Shown one piece after another: positions 6,242 to 12,363 of a stretch of DNA of 37,060 nt; position 1 is the stretch's first letter; every line of letters starts with the position of its first letter. Under the pieces are notes generated by a model that searched no databases, had not been told where the DNA came from, and worked only from the letters and a program-made list of their open reading frames with translations. The DNA comes from an uncultured Bacilli bacterium (GTDB lineage: Bacteria; Bacillota_I; Bacilli_A; RFN20; CAG-826): the NCBI GenBank assembly GCA_944358865.1, contig CALVRV010000014.1, positions 1-37,060 on the forward strand, in the 5' to 3' direction. Position numbers and translations under genes: made by a program.

Positions 6242-7185
6242 TTAAAGATTTAGAACTTTTACAAAGAAGAAAACATATAATTGGATCGATTATATTATCT
6301 ATTTGTTTTGTTATTGTAAGTATAACAACATTTTATGGTGTTCGTATCTTTTTCCCAATTGTTGGTTCTTATGGTAAAGGCGCTTTAAATACTTTACCTT
6401 GTTCATTTACTTATTTAATTCCATTATTTATTTTTTATATGGCATTATTATATGTCTATGCAAAAGAAAATAAATCAAGATTAAAAATACTATATATTTT
6501 AGGATATGTTTTAATTGCTTTATCAATATTTAATATTGTTTTAATGACTATTGTTTATTTTGTTTTACTTGATGGAGACATCTTTTTCCAAACTATGACA
6601 CCAATGTATCCTCTTGATGTCTTTATTATTAATAGTGTTTATTTTTTAGTTGGTGTTGCTTGCTTAATATATTATTTTTTAGATAAAAAATATCAATTAA
6701 CGATTTTAATAAGACCAAGACCATTTTTTAAAAAAGATTTTGTTTTAGCAGGGTTTTTATTACCATTTGCCACGTATTTTGTTGGTGAATTTTTCTTTAT
6801 GTTTATTTATTTTCAAGAAGGATATATTGATCCAAATTGGCCTTTTATGGTTCCTGTTTATTTAAGCTTTTTACTTTTGGCTTCTTTATGTATTTGTTAT
6901 TATATTTATCCATATATTAAAGATAATAAAAAAGATTTATATCAGATGATTGTCTTAATTGTTGAATACGCTTTAACAATAATTTTAGGTATTTGGATAT
7001 TATGTGGTGTAATTATTAACCCATATTTAGTTAGTCAATCTCTACAGTGGGAATTTGAAATAGGTTTAGCGGCTAAAATTCCTTTTGGATTATTTGTTAA
7101 CTTTTTATTTACTATTCCTATTTTAATTGTTTCTTCTGTTAAGTTTTTTAAAAAGACTATAAAAAAGAAAAATGAACAAGAATAA
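6226..7185 (+). CDS. Eight-helix integral membrane protein, function unknown
   Basis: A 319-residue protein with about eight predicted membrane helices spread over its whole length, a charged N-terminus (KDLELLQRRKH) and a basic C-terminal tail (KKTIKKKNEQE). I see no motif that identifies a family. ATG 6226 lies inside the end of the phosphoesterase gene, with AAGGAG 13 bases upstream, so expression is probably coupled to it; the end in turn overlaps the pseudouridine synthase gene by 14 bases. The context suggests a partner of the surface lipoprotein, but that is inference. Confidence 0.6.
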   Translation: MAEPVIKDLELLQRRKHIIGSIILSICFVIVSITTFYGVRIFFPIVGSYGKGALNTLPCSFTYLIPLFIFYMALLYVYAKENKSRLKILYILGYVLIALSIFNIVLMTIVYFVLLDGDIFFQTMTPMYPLDVFIINSVYFLVGVACLIYYFLDKKYQLTILIRPRPFFKKDFVLAGFLLPFATYFVGEFFFMFIYFQEGYIDPNWPFMVPVYLSFLLLASLCICYYIYPYIKDNKKDLYQMIVLIVEYALTIILGIWILCGVIINPYLVSQSLQWEFEIGLAAKIPFGLFVNFLFTIPILIVSSVKFFKKTIKKKNEQE

Positions 7186-8092
7186 AAAAAGATTTAATAA
7201 CTATTCTAAAAATTATAATAGTCAAAAAATGTATCATGTTTTAAAAGAAGATACATTACTTAATTTTTTATTAAACAATATTAAAGGAGAATCAAGAAAT
7301 TCAATTAAAGGATTACTTTCTCATAATCTTGTCAGTGTTAATGGCGCAATCATACGTCAATTTGATTACCCTCTAGCGGTGAAAGATGAAATTATTATTT
7401 TAAATAAGCCATCACACAATACAAAAAATATTAAAGCCACACTTAATATCGTTTATGAAGATGATGAATTAATAGTAATAAATAAACCAAGTGGTCTTTT
7501 AAGTGTTTCAAGCGATAAAGAAAAAGGCAAGACCGCTTATCGACTCATAAGTGATTATCTATTAACAAAAGATAAACATCTAAGACCATATGTTGTTCAT
7601 CGTATTGATGAAGATACTTCAGGGATTCTATTAATGGTAAAATCAAAAACACTTCAAGATGAATTTACAAATAAATGGAACGATTTAGTTCTTGATCGAG
7701 GCTATTATGCAATATGTGAAGGAATTTTTAATAAAAAAGAAGGAACAATTAAAACTTATCTTAAATCTAATAATTTAAATTTAATGTATTCTAGCAACGA
7801 TAAAGTTCATGGCAAATTAGCTATTACGCATTACAAAGTTATTAAAGAAAATGATTTATATTCTTTATTAGATGTTCATATAGATACTGGTAGAAAAAAT
7901 CAAATACGTGTTGCAATGAATGATATGGGCCATACAATTATCGGTGATGATAAATATGGAGAGCCATCTAATCCTTTAAAAAGACTTGGCCTACATGCTT
8001 ATCGATTAAAAATAAAACATCCATTTACAAACAAAATATATAACTTTGAATCTAAAATTCCTAATGAGTTTTTAAATTTGTTAAAAAAATAA
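7172..8092 (+). CDS. RluA family pseudouridine synthase
   Basis: RNA pseudouridine synthase that converts uridine to pseudouridine in rRNA or tRNA. The N-terminal 85 residues form an S4-type RNA-binding region (YHVLKEDTLLNFLLNNI ... LVSVNGAI). The catalytic domain has the signature VVHRIDEDTSGILLMVKS, whose Asp is the nucleophile (usual motif HRLDxxTSG), then TGRKNQIRVAMNDMGH and IIGDDKYG. Length 306 is normal for the RluD/YlyB/YjbO group; the exact target uridine cannot be assigned. The gene starts inside the preceding membrane protein gene without an obvious ribosome-binding site, so coupled translation is likely. Confidence 0.88.
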   Translation: MNKNKKRFNNYSKNYNSQKMYHVLKEDTLLNFLLNNIKGESRNSIKGLLSHNLVSVNGAIIRQFDYPLAVKDEIIILNKPSHNTKNIKATLNIVYEDDELIVINKPSGLLSVSSDKEKGKTAYRLISDYLLTKDKHLRPYVVHRIDEDTSGILLMVKSKTLQDEFTNKWNDLVLDRGYYAICEGIFNKKEGTIKTYLKSNNLNLMYSSNDKVHGKLAITHYKVIKENDLYSLLDVHIDTGRKNQIRVAMNDMGHTIIGDDKYGEPSNPLKRLGLHAYRLKIKHPFTNKIYNFESKIPNEFLNLLKK

Positions 8093-8137: not shown

Positions 8138-9733
8138 ATGAAATTTTTAAGAGTTTTTTTAGAGTCGTCTTTATCAATAATTCCTATTGTCGCTATTATC
8201 TTGATCTTATCATTATCAACTTTAACACCATTAATTGGTGGATGGGATTATTTATTGTTAATTGTTGGCGCGTTAGTGTTAATAATTGGACTTAGTATTT
8301 TTTCTATAGGTTCTTCAAGAAGCTTATCTAAAGTTGGAGAACATATGGGTGCTTCTTTATCAAAACAAAACAATATTTGGATTGTTATATTAGTATCATT
8401 TTTATTAGGCGCGCTTGTCACTTGCGCTGAACCTTCAATTATGATATTAGCAGAACTAACACCTATGGATGATTGGATGTTAATTTTATTTATTTCTGTT
8501 GGGGTTGGTTTATTTGTTGCACTAGGGGTTATTCGTGTTTTTAAAAGAAAATCACTAAAATGGTGGCTTATAACTTTATATGGCATCGTTTTTGGTTTGT
8601 GCTTAATTATAGACAGCAATCAACAAGCTCAATATCTACCATTAATTTTTGACGCTAGTGGGGCAACAACTGGAAGTGCAACAGTTCCATTTTTATTATC
8701 TTTAGGTAGTGGTGTTGCTATGGTAAGAGCAGGAAAAAAAGCTAAAGAAGAAAGTTTTGGATTAGTAGCTATATCTAGTGTTGGTCCTATTATTTCTATG
8801 GTAATCATGGTTATTATTAATACCTCCACTGTAGCGGGTAATTATGATCTTGGTTCAACATTATTAAATAATAGTAGCGATATATTCACACGTTTTTATC
8901 AAGCTATTTTTCCTACTTTTGATGTTAATGGTAACATTTTAGGATATGGGACAATTATTGAGGTCTTAGTTGCTTTACTTCCTATTATGGTTGTATTTTT
9001 TATTTATCAAAAGATTTTTATTAAATTACCTAAAGGTGAATTAATTCGTATTTCATTAGGATTTTTATATTCTTATCTTGGTTTAGTTTTATTTTTAAGC
9101 GCAGTTAGCGCAGTAATGATGCCATTTGGAATATTCATTGGGCAAGAATTAGGAAATTACGCTCCATGGGTTATTATATTAATATTCTTTATAATTGGTT
9201 TAGTATCGATTATGTGTGAGCCAGCAATTCATGTTTTAACTAAACAAATTGAACAAGTTAGCGATGGTGGTATTAAAAAAAGCAGTGTCTTATTAACACT
9301 TTCTATCGGTGTTGGTGTGGCTATTGGACTTTGCGCTATACGCGCTATATATAAATTTAGTATTGCTTATTATATTATTCCTGGTTATTTAATTGCTCTT
9401 GGATTAACATTTTTATCACCAAATTTATTTACTGCATTAGCCTTTGATAGCGGTGGTGTTGCCAGTGGACCAATGACTGTTTCTTTTTTACTACCTTTAA
9501 CAATTGGAATGTATGCTAGTCAAAATAATATAGTCATTTCTAATGACAGCCAAGACGGTTTATTAAAACAAGACGTTTTAACAAATTGTTTTGGTGTTAT
9601 TGCTATGGTTGCGATGACTCCATTGATTGCAATTCAAATTTTAGGAATAATCATTGAATATAAAAAATATCGTCGTCAATCTCTATATCAAAGTCAATTG
9701 CTATTATCAGATAATGAGGTTATACATTTTTAG
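8138..9733 (+). CDS. Double DUF1538 integral membrane protein (fused UmpA/UmpB-like)
   Basis: A 531-residue membrane protein made of two homologous halves. Each half has a CxEP motif (TCAEPSIMIL at about 95-104; MCEPAIHVL at about 359-367) and a later FD-Gly-Ser-rich motif (FDASGATTGSATVPF at about 171-185; FDSGGVASGPMTVSF at about 436-450). That is the DUF1538 family, usually found as one double-length protein or as two adjacent proteins; from memory a two-protein member (UmpAB) was reported to act as a cation/proton antiporter. Two PII-like genes follow at once (10 and 12 bp gaps), so the transporter is probably regulated by a nucleotide or metabolite through them. A basic cytoplasmic tail (KKYRRQ) ends the protein. 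Confidence 0.8.
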   Translation: MKFLRVFLESSLSIIPIVAIILILSLSTLTPLIGGWDYLLLIVGALVLIIGLSIFSIGSSRSLSKVGEHMGASLSKQNNIWIVILVSFLLGALVTCAEPSIMILAELTPMDDWMLILFISVGVGLFVALGVIRVFKRKSLKWWLITLYGIVFGLCLIIDSNQQAQYLPLIFDASGATTGSATVPFLLSLGSGVAMVRAGKKAKEESFGLVAISSVGPIISMVIMVIINTSTVAGNYDLGSTLLNNSSDIFTRFYQAIFPTFDVNGNILGYGTIIEVLVALLPIMVVFFIYQKIFIKLPKGELIRISLGFLYSYLGLVLFLSAVSAVMMPFGIFIGQELGNYAPWVIILIFFIIGLVSIMCEPAIHVLTKQIEQVSDGGIKKSSVLLTLSIGVGVAIGLCAIRAIYKFSIAYYIIPGYLIALGLTFLSPNLFTALAFDSGGVASGPMTVSFLLPLTIGMYASQNNIVISNDSQDGLLKQDVLTNCFGVIAMVAMTPLIAIQILGIIIEYKKYRRQSLYQSQLLLSDNEVIHF

Positions 9734-9742
9734 GAGTTATTT

Positions 9743-10126
9743 ATGGCTATAATTAAAAAGAAGAAAAATAATTTAAATGTTACCTCCAAGATTGAAATTA
9801 AAAAGATATGTCTTTTAATTGTTGTAGTTAATCGTGGTCAAGGAATGCCAATTATTAAATTATTAGAAAAATATGGTGTTGCCACATCATTAATTTTAAA
9901 AGGAGAAGGAACGGCCGAACCTAATTTATATGATTTACTCGGCTTAAGTGAAAAATCAAAAGATGTTGTTTTAACAACAATAAGAGAAGATTTAATTAAT
10001 GATATTAAAGATGAATTAAATTTATATTTTTTATCTAGTAAGAAAAATAAAGGTGTAGCTAGTATTGTTGATTTATCATCAATAGTTAATGGTCTAGCAT
10101 ATCGCTTTTTAACGAATCAATATTAA
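9743..10126 (+). CDS. PII-like protein, divergent (first of two)
   Basis: A 127-residue protein with a basic N-terminal extension (IKKKKNNLN) followed by a PII-like beta-alpha-beta core: KICLLIVVVNRGQGMPIIKLLEKYGVATSLILKGEG is split here as KICLLIVVVNRG, then IIKLLEKYGV, then SLILKGEGTA. The usual T-loop with its uridylylated Tyr is not recognisable. A good ribosome-binding site (AGGAG) precedes ATG 9743. It is more divergent than the second copy and the C-terminal nucleotide-binding motif is altered, so it may bind a different ligand or only form mixed trimers. Function is inferred from position between a DUF1538 transporter and a clearer PII gene. Confidence 0.7.
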   Translation: MAIIKKKKNNLNVTSKIEIKKICLLIVVVNRGQGMPIIKLLEKYGVATSLILKGEGTAEPNLYDLLGLSEKSKDVVLTTIREDLINDIKDELNLYFLSSKKNKGVASIVDLSSIVNGLAYRFLTNQY

Positions 10127-10137
10127 GGAGAATCAAA

Positions 10138-10452
10138 ATGGAAAATAGTTATTCATTAGTGTTTGCAATTGTTGATGCAGGGTTTACTGATTTAGTAATG
10201 GATGCAGCAAGAGATAATGGCGCAAGAGGGGGAACAGTTTTACACGCTCGTGGTACTGGCAATAAAGAGATAGAGGAAAAATTTGGTATCATAATTAACG
10301 ATGATAAAGAAATTGTAATGATCATCGTTAAAGATGATATGGTTGATAATATTTTAAAAGCTATTAATGATGTTGCAGGTCTATCAACACCAGGCAAAGG
10401 AATTGCATTTTCTTGCAAATGTCGAGATGTTGTTGGATTAAAATTTGATTAA
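10138..10452 (+). CDS. PII family signal protein (second of two)
   Basis: A 104-residue PII-family protein. The opening SLVFAIVDAGFTDLVMDAARDNGA, taken as SLVFAIVDAGF and VMDAARDNGA, corresponds to the first beta-alpha unit, followed by GGTVLHARGTG and a short T-loop (NKEIEEKFGI). The core continues with EIVMIIVKDDMVDNILKAI and ends in GLSTPGKGIAFS, comparable to the GxxGxGKIFV nucleotide-contact region of GlnB. No Tyr corresponding to the uridylylation site is visible, and no glnK-amtB pair is nearby, so nitrogen control by modification is unlikely. Strong AAGGAG ribosome-binding site. Third gene of the DUF1538 operon, ending at a strong terminator. Confidence 0.82.
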   Translation: MENSYSLVFAIVDAGFTDLVMDAARDNGARGGTVLHARGTGNKEIEEKFGIIINDDKEIVMIIVKDDMVDNILKAINDVAGLSTPGKGIAFSCKCRDVVGLKFD

Positions 10453-10461
10453 AAATAAAAT

Positions 10462-10487
10462 AAAAATTGGCAAATCGCCAATTTTTT
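10462..10487. terminator. Bidirectional rho-independent terminator
   Basis: A perfect 10-bp stem (10462-10471 with 10477-10486) carries GGC/GCC next to a 5-nt loop and a run of T on the plus strand and of A on the left arm. It lies between the PII gene and the end of typA and can serve both strands. Confidence 0.85.
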
Positions 10488-10501: not shown

Positions 10502-12325
10502 TTAATTATCTTGATCATCTTTATGATGTGCTTCATATTTTTTTCTTGTCGCAGTATCTAATATTTTCTTTCTCATACGATATGTTTTAGGTGTTATTTC
10601 CACTAATTCATCGCTGTTAATATAATCAAGACAAGCTTCTAAAGACATCAAACGAGGTGTTTTTAAAACAACGGTAAAATCTTTTGTTGAACTTCTAACA
10701 TTAGTTAAATTTTTCTTAGCAACAACATTAACCGCTAAATCGTTATCATAACGATTTTCACCAACAATCATACCAGTATATACTTTTGTGCCAGGTTGAA
10801 TAAACATCGTACCTCTTTCTTCAACGTGCTCAATAGCGTAAGGTGTCGCATCACCAGTTTCAGTCGCGACTAAAACACCAATTTTTCTTTCACCTAATTT
10901 TATATTTAACATAGGACGATATTCTTTAAAAGTGTGTGAAATAATACCATAACCTTTAGTCAAAGTCATAAAAGATGAAACAAAACCAATTAATCCACGG
11001 GAAGGAATAACATATTCTAATTTTGTTGTAAATTCATTATTGGTCATATCAATTAATTGAGCGTTTTTTGTACCAAGTGTTTCCATAATGTCTCCAACAA
11101 AATCATTAGGAACCTCAATAGTTAAATCTTCAAAGGGTTCATATTTTTGACCTTCTATTTCTTTAATAATAATTTCAGGTTTACTAACTTGTAATTCATA
11201 ACCTTCTCTTATCATATTCTCAATTAATATTGACAAATGTAATTCGCCTCTTCCAGATACAATCCATGTTTCTGAATTAGGAACTCTTTTAACACGTAAA
11301 GAAACATCTTTTTGCAATTCTTTAAATAATCTTTCTTCAATTTTTCTTGCCGTCAAATATTTTCCATCTTGACCAGCAAAAGGGGAAGTATTTACACCAA
11401 AAGTCATTTGTAATGTTGGTTCATCAATATGTAATAAAGGTAAAGGATCTAAATGATTATTATCACAAATTGTTTCTCCAACATTAATATCAGGAAGTCC
11501 AGCGATTGCAACAATATCACCTGCAAAAGCCTCGTTTACCTCAATTTTCTTTAAACCTTGGTTGCCATATAATTTTAAAATTTTAAATTGTTTATTTGTT
11601 CCATCTAAACGGCAACAAGTAACAGTTTCTCCTACACTTATTTTACCGTTTTTGATTTTACCAATTCCTACTCTTCCAACAAAGTCGTTATAGTCTAATA
11701 ACGAAATTTGAAATCTTAATGGTTGATTTATATCAGAATCAGGTTTTGGAATTTCTTTAATAATCGTATCAAAAATTGGATCCATATTATCAACTTGTTC
11801 TTCAATTGAATATCCAGATGTTCCTTTTAACGCTGAAGTGTAGCAAACTTTAAAATCTAATAAGTCATCATCTGCACCTAGTTCAATAAAAAGATTTAAA
11901 ATTTCATCTAAAGTTTTTTGTATATCAATATTTTTTCTATCAATTTTATTAATAACCACAACTGGCTTAATGTGAGCTTGTAAAGCCTTTTTTAAGACAA
12001 ACCTTGTTTGTGGCATTGCACCTTCAAAAGCATCAACAAGTAATAAACAACCATCGACCATATTCATAATACGTTCGACTTCTCCTCCAAAATCAGCGTG
12101 CCCAGGAGTGTCAACGATATTAATTTTATAGTCTTTGTAATAAATAGAAGTAGTCTTAGCTAAAATTGTGATACCTCTTTCTCTTTCTATATCGTTAGAG
12201 TCCATAACTCTATCGTTTACTTCTTCATTACTTCTAAAAGTTCCAGCACTTTTTAATAATTGATCCACTAAAGTGGTTTTGCCATGATCGACATGGGCTA
12301 TAATCGCAACATTTCTAATTTCCAT
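10502..12325 (-). CDS. typA: Ribosome-associated GTPase TypA/BipA
   Basis: Translational GTPase that binds the ribosome and helps 50S subunit assembly and stress adaptation. Motifs: [15 protein letters not shown] (G1), the RGITI effector segment, [15 protein letters not shown] (G3), NKIDRKN (G4), then the domain II, III and V regions and the TypA-specific C-terminus. I chose ATG 12325 (start [15 protein letters not shown], 607 aa) because a TTGAAT-N16-TATTAT promoter ends ten bases upstream of it and covers the alternative ATG at 12346. There is no clear Shine-Dalgarno sequence. Divergent from the YfhO gene, convergent with the PII operon. Confidence 0.93.
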
Positions 12326-12335
12326 AACGTTATAA

Positions 12336-12363
12336 ATAATAGTCATTTTTTATAAAAATTCAA
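12336..12363 (-). promoter_or_regulatory. typA: typA promoter, very short leader
   Basis: Minus strand: -35 TTGAAT (12358-12363), 16-bp spacer, -10 TATTAT (12336-12341). The ATG at 12325 is 10 nt past the -10 box, so the leader would be about four bases. Confidence 0.5.

Follow-up and report, generated by a model that had tools for sequence, protein, structure and literature searches.

A conserved gene unit in Bacilli joins a two-half DUF1538 membrane protein to a pair of divergent PII-family proteins

PII proteins are the textbook sensors of nitrogen and carbon. What, then, are two different PII-family genes doing directly behind the gene for a putative ion transporter in an uncultured member of the Bacilli? 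The window, by which we mean the whole 37,060-nucleotide stretch of DNA that was analysed, holds at positions 8138-10452 a tight three-gene unit encoding DUF1538, PII-A and PII-B, in that order, with intergenic gaps of 9 and 11 bases. The host genome is streamlined (a 1.19 Mb assembly, 97.65% complete), and glutamine synthetase and the ammonium transporter Amt, which the first-pass annotation had not seen near the unit, are absent from the entire host assembly. The genes and signals of the unit are laid out as follows.

8138-9733, forward strand: DUF1538 open reading frame, a two-half membrane protein of PF07556 (531 aa)
9732-9736, forward strand: ribosome-binding site (Shine-Dalgarno) for PII-A; overlaps the stop codon of DUF1538; read from the sequence
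9743-10126, forward strand: PII-A open reading frame, a divergent PII-family protein with a degenerate adenine-pocket face (127 aa)
10125-10130, forward strand: ribosome-binding site (Shine-Dalgarno) for PII-B; overlaps the stop codon of PII-A; read from the sequence
10138-10452, forward strand: PII-B open reading frame, PF00543, with a short T-loop (104 aa)
10462-10486, no strand: bidirectional terminator-like hairpin at the end of the unit

Riboswitch control of the unit was rejected after an Rfam scan of the window and 58 loci, which returned tRNAs, one downstream fluoride riboswitch and nothing else. In the host's family the unit often lies 3' of a pseudouridine synthase gene (28 loci), and typA is sometimes convergent behind it (window 7172-8092 and 10502-12346); the neighbours are different outside that family.

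The first gene had been read at the outset as carrying both DUF1538 halves, and this reading proved exact down to the coordinates. PF07556 matches the protein twice, once in each half, with 352 bits in total against a gathering score of 22.6 and E 1e-105 for the whole protein, which places it in the Pfam family. The parts of the protein to which we refer below are these.

8189-8815, forward strand: first DUF1538 half, seven helical segments, containing E98-P99 and D172 (PF07556 E 3.2e-49)
8429-8434, forward strand: codons of E98-P99; the acidic residue is invariant and lies where a helix is predicted to break (alignment, half model)
8651-8653, forward strand: codon of D172, FDASG motif (alignment)
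8984-9652, forward strand: second DUF1538 half, containing E361-P362 and D437 (PF07556 E 6.2e-59)
9218-9223, forward strand: codons of E361-P362 (alignment)
9446-9448, forward strand: codon of D437, FDSGG motif (alignment)
9710-9730, forward strand: C-terminal tail DNEVIHF, predicted to be cytoplasmic (alignment, charge counts)

What had been described as a duplicated CxEP motif is, in its conserved part, E-P (CAEP at 96-99, CEP at 360-362); the cysteine beside it is not conserved, and its register differs between the halves. The duplicated FD-Gly/Ser motif stands as described (FDASGA at 171-176, FDSGG at 436-440), and E98, D172, E361 and D437 are each conserved in 95-96 of 96 aligned homologues. 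Counts of Lys plus Arg across the predicted loops alternate with opposite phase in the two halves, from which the N-terminus and the C-terminal tail are both predicted to lie inside, in the cytoplasm, and the two halves to be inverted in the membrane relative to each other. For the first half AlphaFold2 gave a fair model (pLDDT 79), with helices broken next to E98-P99, and the predicted structure of the full-length protein was poor (pLDDT 56). Searches of the PDB with these two models gave no convincing fold, with no Foldseek match below E 0.06 and VIA Z values of at most 6.3, and no sequence relatives of DUF1538 were found in the PDB.

Membrane ion transport had been proposed as the likely activity, a proposal that homology to UmpAB of Halomonas zhaodongensis supports. 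UmpAB, the sole characterised DUF1538 system that we found, is a Na+(Li+,K+)/H+ antiporter whose activity was measured directly and required both subunits (PMC5484666). It shares with the window protein the Pfam family and the construction from two homologous DUF1538 units, with seven transmembrane segments predicted for each of UmpA and UmpB (PMC5484666), but it consists of two genes that are needed together where the window unit has one chain, and no PII was described or tested in the UmpAB work whereas the window unit has two. Against the NCBIfam models of UmpA and UmpB (NF041627/NF041628) the window protein scored 122.5/121.4 bits, far below the equivalog cut-offs of 490/500, so isofunction with UmpAB is not established by these models. 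Judged by homology and by analogy with UmpAB, the DUF1538 protein is probably a monovalent cation/H+ antiporter, UmpA-UmpB-like in one chain.

Is its association with PII genes more than an accident of one genome? We gathered some 100 DUF1538 loci, drawn from Bacilli genomes and from seven records of a plasmid collection. An A-type followed by a B-type PII domain lies 3' of DUF1538 at every one of the 96 full-length single-gene loci, which come from Bacilli families and Clostridia: as two PII genes at 73 of them, as a fused A-B protein, some 220 aa long and containing both domains, at 22, and as three genes at one. The order is A then B in 95 of these 96 intact loci and B-A-B in the remaining one. 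At two partial DUF1538 genes no PII is seen, since each runs into the end of its contig. When 344 Bacilli genomes were searched with the B profile, counting 70 bits or more as a strong match, a B-type PII was present in 77 of the 78 genomes with DUF1538 versus 4 of the 266 without it; the one other DUF1538 genome gave a weak partial match to the profile. Because A is followed by B at all 96 loci and the genomes with and without DUF1538 differ so sharply, the linkage is not due to chance, and the DUF1538-PII unit is real and widespread. Conserved co-occurrence, which the first-pass annotation had set as its own refutation test, is thus what the genomes display.

Two separate PII genes, the arrangement described at first, turned out to be one of several. 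Besides the fused double PII and the locus with three PII genes, split DUF1538, in which umpA and umpB are two genes, is accompanied by a single B-type PII on two Alphaproteobacteria plasmids, by A and B in one Bacilli genome and by three PII genes upstream in another. Three consecutive PII genes thus adjoin DUF1538 at L153 (5963-6888, upstream of split umpAB) and at L115 (5984-7000, B-A-B, downstream). Among the genes recurring around the locus in 27 surveyed groups, DUF1538 occurred in 26, PII in 25 and the next cluster in 6, and no conserved neighbour was found in these groups beyond DUF1538 and PII. The unit may be carried by mobile elements: one DUF1538 gene, at the terminus of an IMG/VR contig (L157, 1-4668), has several serine recombinase genes as neighbours, and in Chelativorans the unit lies on a plasmid that was typed as conjugative (L098).

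That the two small proteins are strongly different members of the PII family was the view taken at the outset, and profile comparisons agree with it. PII-B matches PF00543 (E 4.8e-10, 40.1 bits, gathering score 25), as do 42 of 44 PII-B relatives, and is the single PF00543 match in the host genome. PII-A of the window had no Pfam match at E 0.1 and so does not itself enter PF00543. In hhalign the A and B families align with 99.4% probability (E 1e-21, 121 columns, 16% identity), and 10 of 42 PII-A relatives match PF00543 directly, so that PII-A is a PII by profile homology. In the tree A and B split as old paralogues, with a support of about 0.92. Neither the A nor the B family matched the Pfam families of DarA/PstA and CutA when scanned at E 0.01.

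Do these proteins retain the means to act as classical PII sensors? Taking as reference E. coli GlnB, the sequence of which was verified against PDB 1pil, and numbering residues by an alignment that is gapped in the T-loop, we find the ATP-phosphate residues K90, R101 and R103 lost in both A and B, in all groups. In nearly all of 80 PII-B sequences K90 is replaced by Ile, Leu or Val, R101 is a conserved Gly and R103 is lost; the adenine pocket (G24, G27, T29) is kept in 77 of the 80. The T-loop of PII-B is shortened and the Q39 region is missing. The initial claim that a uridylylation Tyr is lacking is right for the T-loop of the window PII-B, which contains no Tyr, and has to be qualified for PII-A, which has Y63, a residue that is not conserved. 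The window PII-B therefore has none of the canonical GlnB/GlnK marks (K90, R101, R103 and Tyr51 uridylylation). It might nevertheless be an ordinary ATP/2-oxoglutarate PII simply recruited by the transporter, as would suit its above-cut-off score with PF00543 and a Lys at or adjoining the K58 position that is nearly invariant (78 of 80 sequences), but we find this very hard to credit in view of the replaced K90 and R101, the lost R103, the shorter T-loop without the Q39 region and a host genome with neither glutamine synthetase nor Amt. The lost ATP-phosphate residues, taken with the absence of these two nitrogen genes, argue against classical PII sensing, and favour the earlier suggestion of PII-type control outside nitrogen metabolism.

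PIIs that act on transporters usually control carbon or nitrogen carriers, as in AmtB-GlnK and SbtA-SbtB, and UmpAB, for which antiport is known, is a single and distant pair of homologues. One could accordingly suppose that DUF1538 moves some other substrate, e.g. bicarbonate, ammonium or an organic ion, and that the PIIs report carbon or nitrogen status. Against this supposition, which we judge quite unlikely, stand the direct measurement of antiport by UmpAB (PMC5484666), the listing of DUF1538 among the key pH-adaptation Pfam domains in a machine-learning study of growth pH (PMC13255231), and, once more, the missing host genes for glutamine synthetase and Amt and the lost ATP-phosphate residues.

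How A and B relate to each other is a further question. Classical PIIs are homotrimers, and A and B, each a PII by profile and each on its own side of an old and deep divergence (16% identity in the profile alignment, and the tree), might form separate homotrimers that respond to different signals and act independently on the same transporter. This is unlikely in our view, since A and B have repeatedly been fused into one chain and keep their order, A then B in 95 of the 96 intact loci and B-A-B in the other. On the DUF1538 tree the fused state requires four changes, in four separate clades, which is classical evidence that two domains work together. Moreover, separate-gene PII-A has lost G27 and mostly T29, and has kept G35 and G89 on the other face, so that the faces of the nucleotide site have degenerated differently in A and B. 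To judge from the alignment, a homotrimer of A, in which the adenine-pocket face is gone and the other remains, would have no complete sites, whereas an A subunit that joined B in a mixed trimer could still contribute to a complete site. Of the two options offered at first, separate sensors or a mixed trimer, the fusions in four clades and the unequal decay of the faces favour the mixed trimer.

A possible precedent for such a mixed assembly is 9p1x, the top PDB sequence match to the B profile, which contains 12 copies of a 105-residue and 6 copies of a 125-residue P-II protein. We take these chains to be NifI1 and NifI2 in a 2:1 mixture. The A profile gave no match to the second 9p1x chain. 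NifI1/NifI2 resembles the unit in that two different PII genes lie beside their target, but that target is an enzyme, nitrogenase, and the signal is 2-oxoglutarate.

Transporter-PII pairs as such are already known. In GlnK-AmtB, too, a PII gene directly adjoins a membrane transporter, but the AmtB family is unrelated to DUF1538 by Pfam, the window unit has two PIIs rather than one, these PIIs are without the ATP-phosphate residues and the uridylylation Tyr, and the host genome is without Amt. SbtB-SbtA is alike in that a PII-like protein, SbtB, regulates an ion transporter outside nitrogen control; it differs in its transporter family and in having a single PII instead of a pair, and SbtB scored weakly against the B profile (E 0.12). 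DarA/PstA, a c-di-AMP-binding PII-like protein of Bacillota that also stands outside nitrogen control, offers a candidate model for the ligand, but A and B do not match its Pfam family in the scans described above. DarA/PstA also has a distinct binding motif.

Does the PII pair serve DUF1538 alone? In four genomes from two genera of the host's family, DUF1538 is gone from both the locus and the genome and the A-B pair is still in place.

L159, 6843-7554: A-B pair retained after DUF1538 loss
L160, 6821-7541: A-B pair retained after DUF1538 loss
L161: A-B pair retained after DUF1538 loss
L162, 7371-8092: A-B pair retained after DUF1538 loss

Among three DUF1538-free genomes of one genus, dN/dS was 0.04-0.14 for PII-A and, in the two comparisons with measurable dS, 0.005-0.05 for PII-B, and the pair is thus under strong purifying selection in these three. 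The retention of the pair after DUF1538 loss and its low dN/dS point to a function independent of the transporter; the notion of the PII pair as an obligate transporter subunit was rejected on the strength of the four genomes. In one genome (L163, 7192-9291) a second, diverged A/B-like pair immediately precedes the genes of an ABC ATPase and a UPF0014 permease, which suggests that PII pairs also serve a metal-exporter-like (UPF0014) system. Together with the DUF1538-free pairs, this indicates that the PII pair probably has clients besides DUF1538. These observations would also suit a broader reading, in which the pair is a more general regulator and DUF1538 is one of several clients, perhaps among other transporters or enzymes. 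We regard that reading as improbable, since DUF1538 is present in 77 of the 81 genomes with a B-type PII, its linkage to the pair is unbroken at the intact loci and no other neighbour is conserved.

If the PII pair acts on the DUF1538 protein directly, it may do so through the end of that protein. Most Bacilli homologues have an acidic-hydrophobic tail of the DNEVIHF type, which is absent from a clade of 14 with fused PII, and we consider this C-terminal tail a candidate docking peptide for PII. In the four DUF1538-free genomes a search for other carriers of the tail motif gave pattern matches at control level, none of them at the terminus of a transporter.

Our preferred reading, to which we would give an even chance, is of a dedicated unit in which A and B together make up a single hetero-oligomeric PII, and this PII, through a bound ligand, gates an antiporter of the UmpAB kind. 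Antiport by the DUF1538 protein, the heteromer, its docking, the direction of gating and the ligand are what we infer from the comparisons made here, in the following form. The DUF1538 chain would be an UmpA/UmpB heterodimer in one chain, with two seven-helix halves in opposite membrane orientation; in each half the invariant Glu of the EP motif and the Asp of the FD-G/S motif would lie near helix breaks, and Na+, K+ or Li+ would be exchanged for H+. PII-A and PII-B would assemble into a hetero-oligomer, in the simplest case a trimer containing more B than A, which would dock on the cytoplasmic face and either inhibit or open the antiporter. The signal would be a ligand in the adenine pocket kept by B, and not the classical read-out of MgATP and 2-oxoglutarate because K90, R101 and R103 are gone. 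Candidates are c-di-AMP or another adenine nucleotide, and the host genome encodes one diadenylate cyclase (DAC, c-di-AMP cyclase) domain. A fuller version of the proposal, in which a hetero-oligomer of a ligand-competent B and a half-degenerate A binds an adenine-type ligand other than ATP/2-oxoglutarate, directly gates a cation/proton antiporter and in some lineages has been detached and reused, e.g. for UPF0014-type exporters, is one that we put forward tentatively, as possible and no better than that.

The link between DUF1538 and PII was not found in the searchable literature on DUF1538 or UmpAB, nor in related literature searches, and the initial statement that the coupling has no described mechanism holds to that extent. 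As far as the searchable literature shows, therefore, the DUF1538-PII unit is an undescribed transporter-PII unit. To our knowledge the UmpAB antiporter family has no known regulator, and if the proposal is true the PII pair would be one. PII signalling would then extend to the balance of Na+, K+ and pH, the natural fused A-B proteins, of which Peptoclostridium acidaminophilum has one, would offer a clean system in which to study mixed PII assemblies, and the automatic label 'P-II family nitrogen regulator', carried by Clostridia and Alphaproteobacteria records, would be misleading for these genes. In the host, whose streamlined genome of 1.2 Mb has neither glutamine synthetase nor an ammonium transporter, a PII pair would be linked with ion exchange, and the unit, with its counterparts in the intact single-gene relatives, points to a widespread system for the control of ion transport that is separate from PII nitrogen control.
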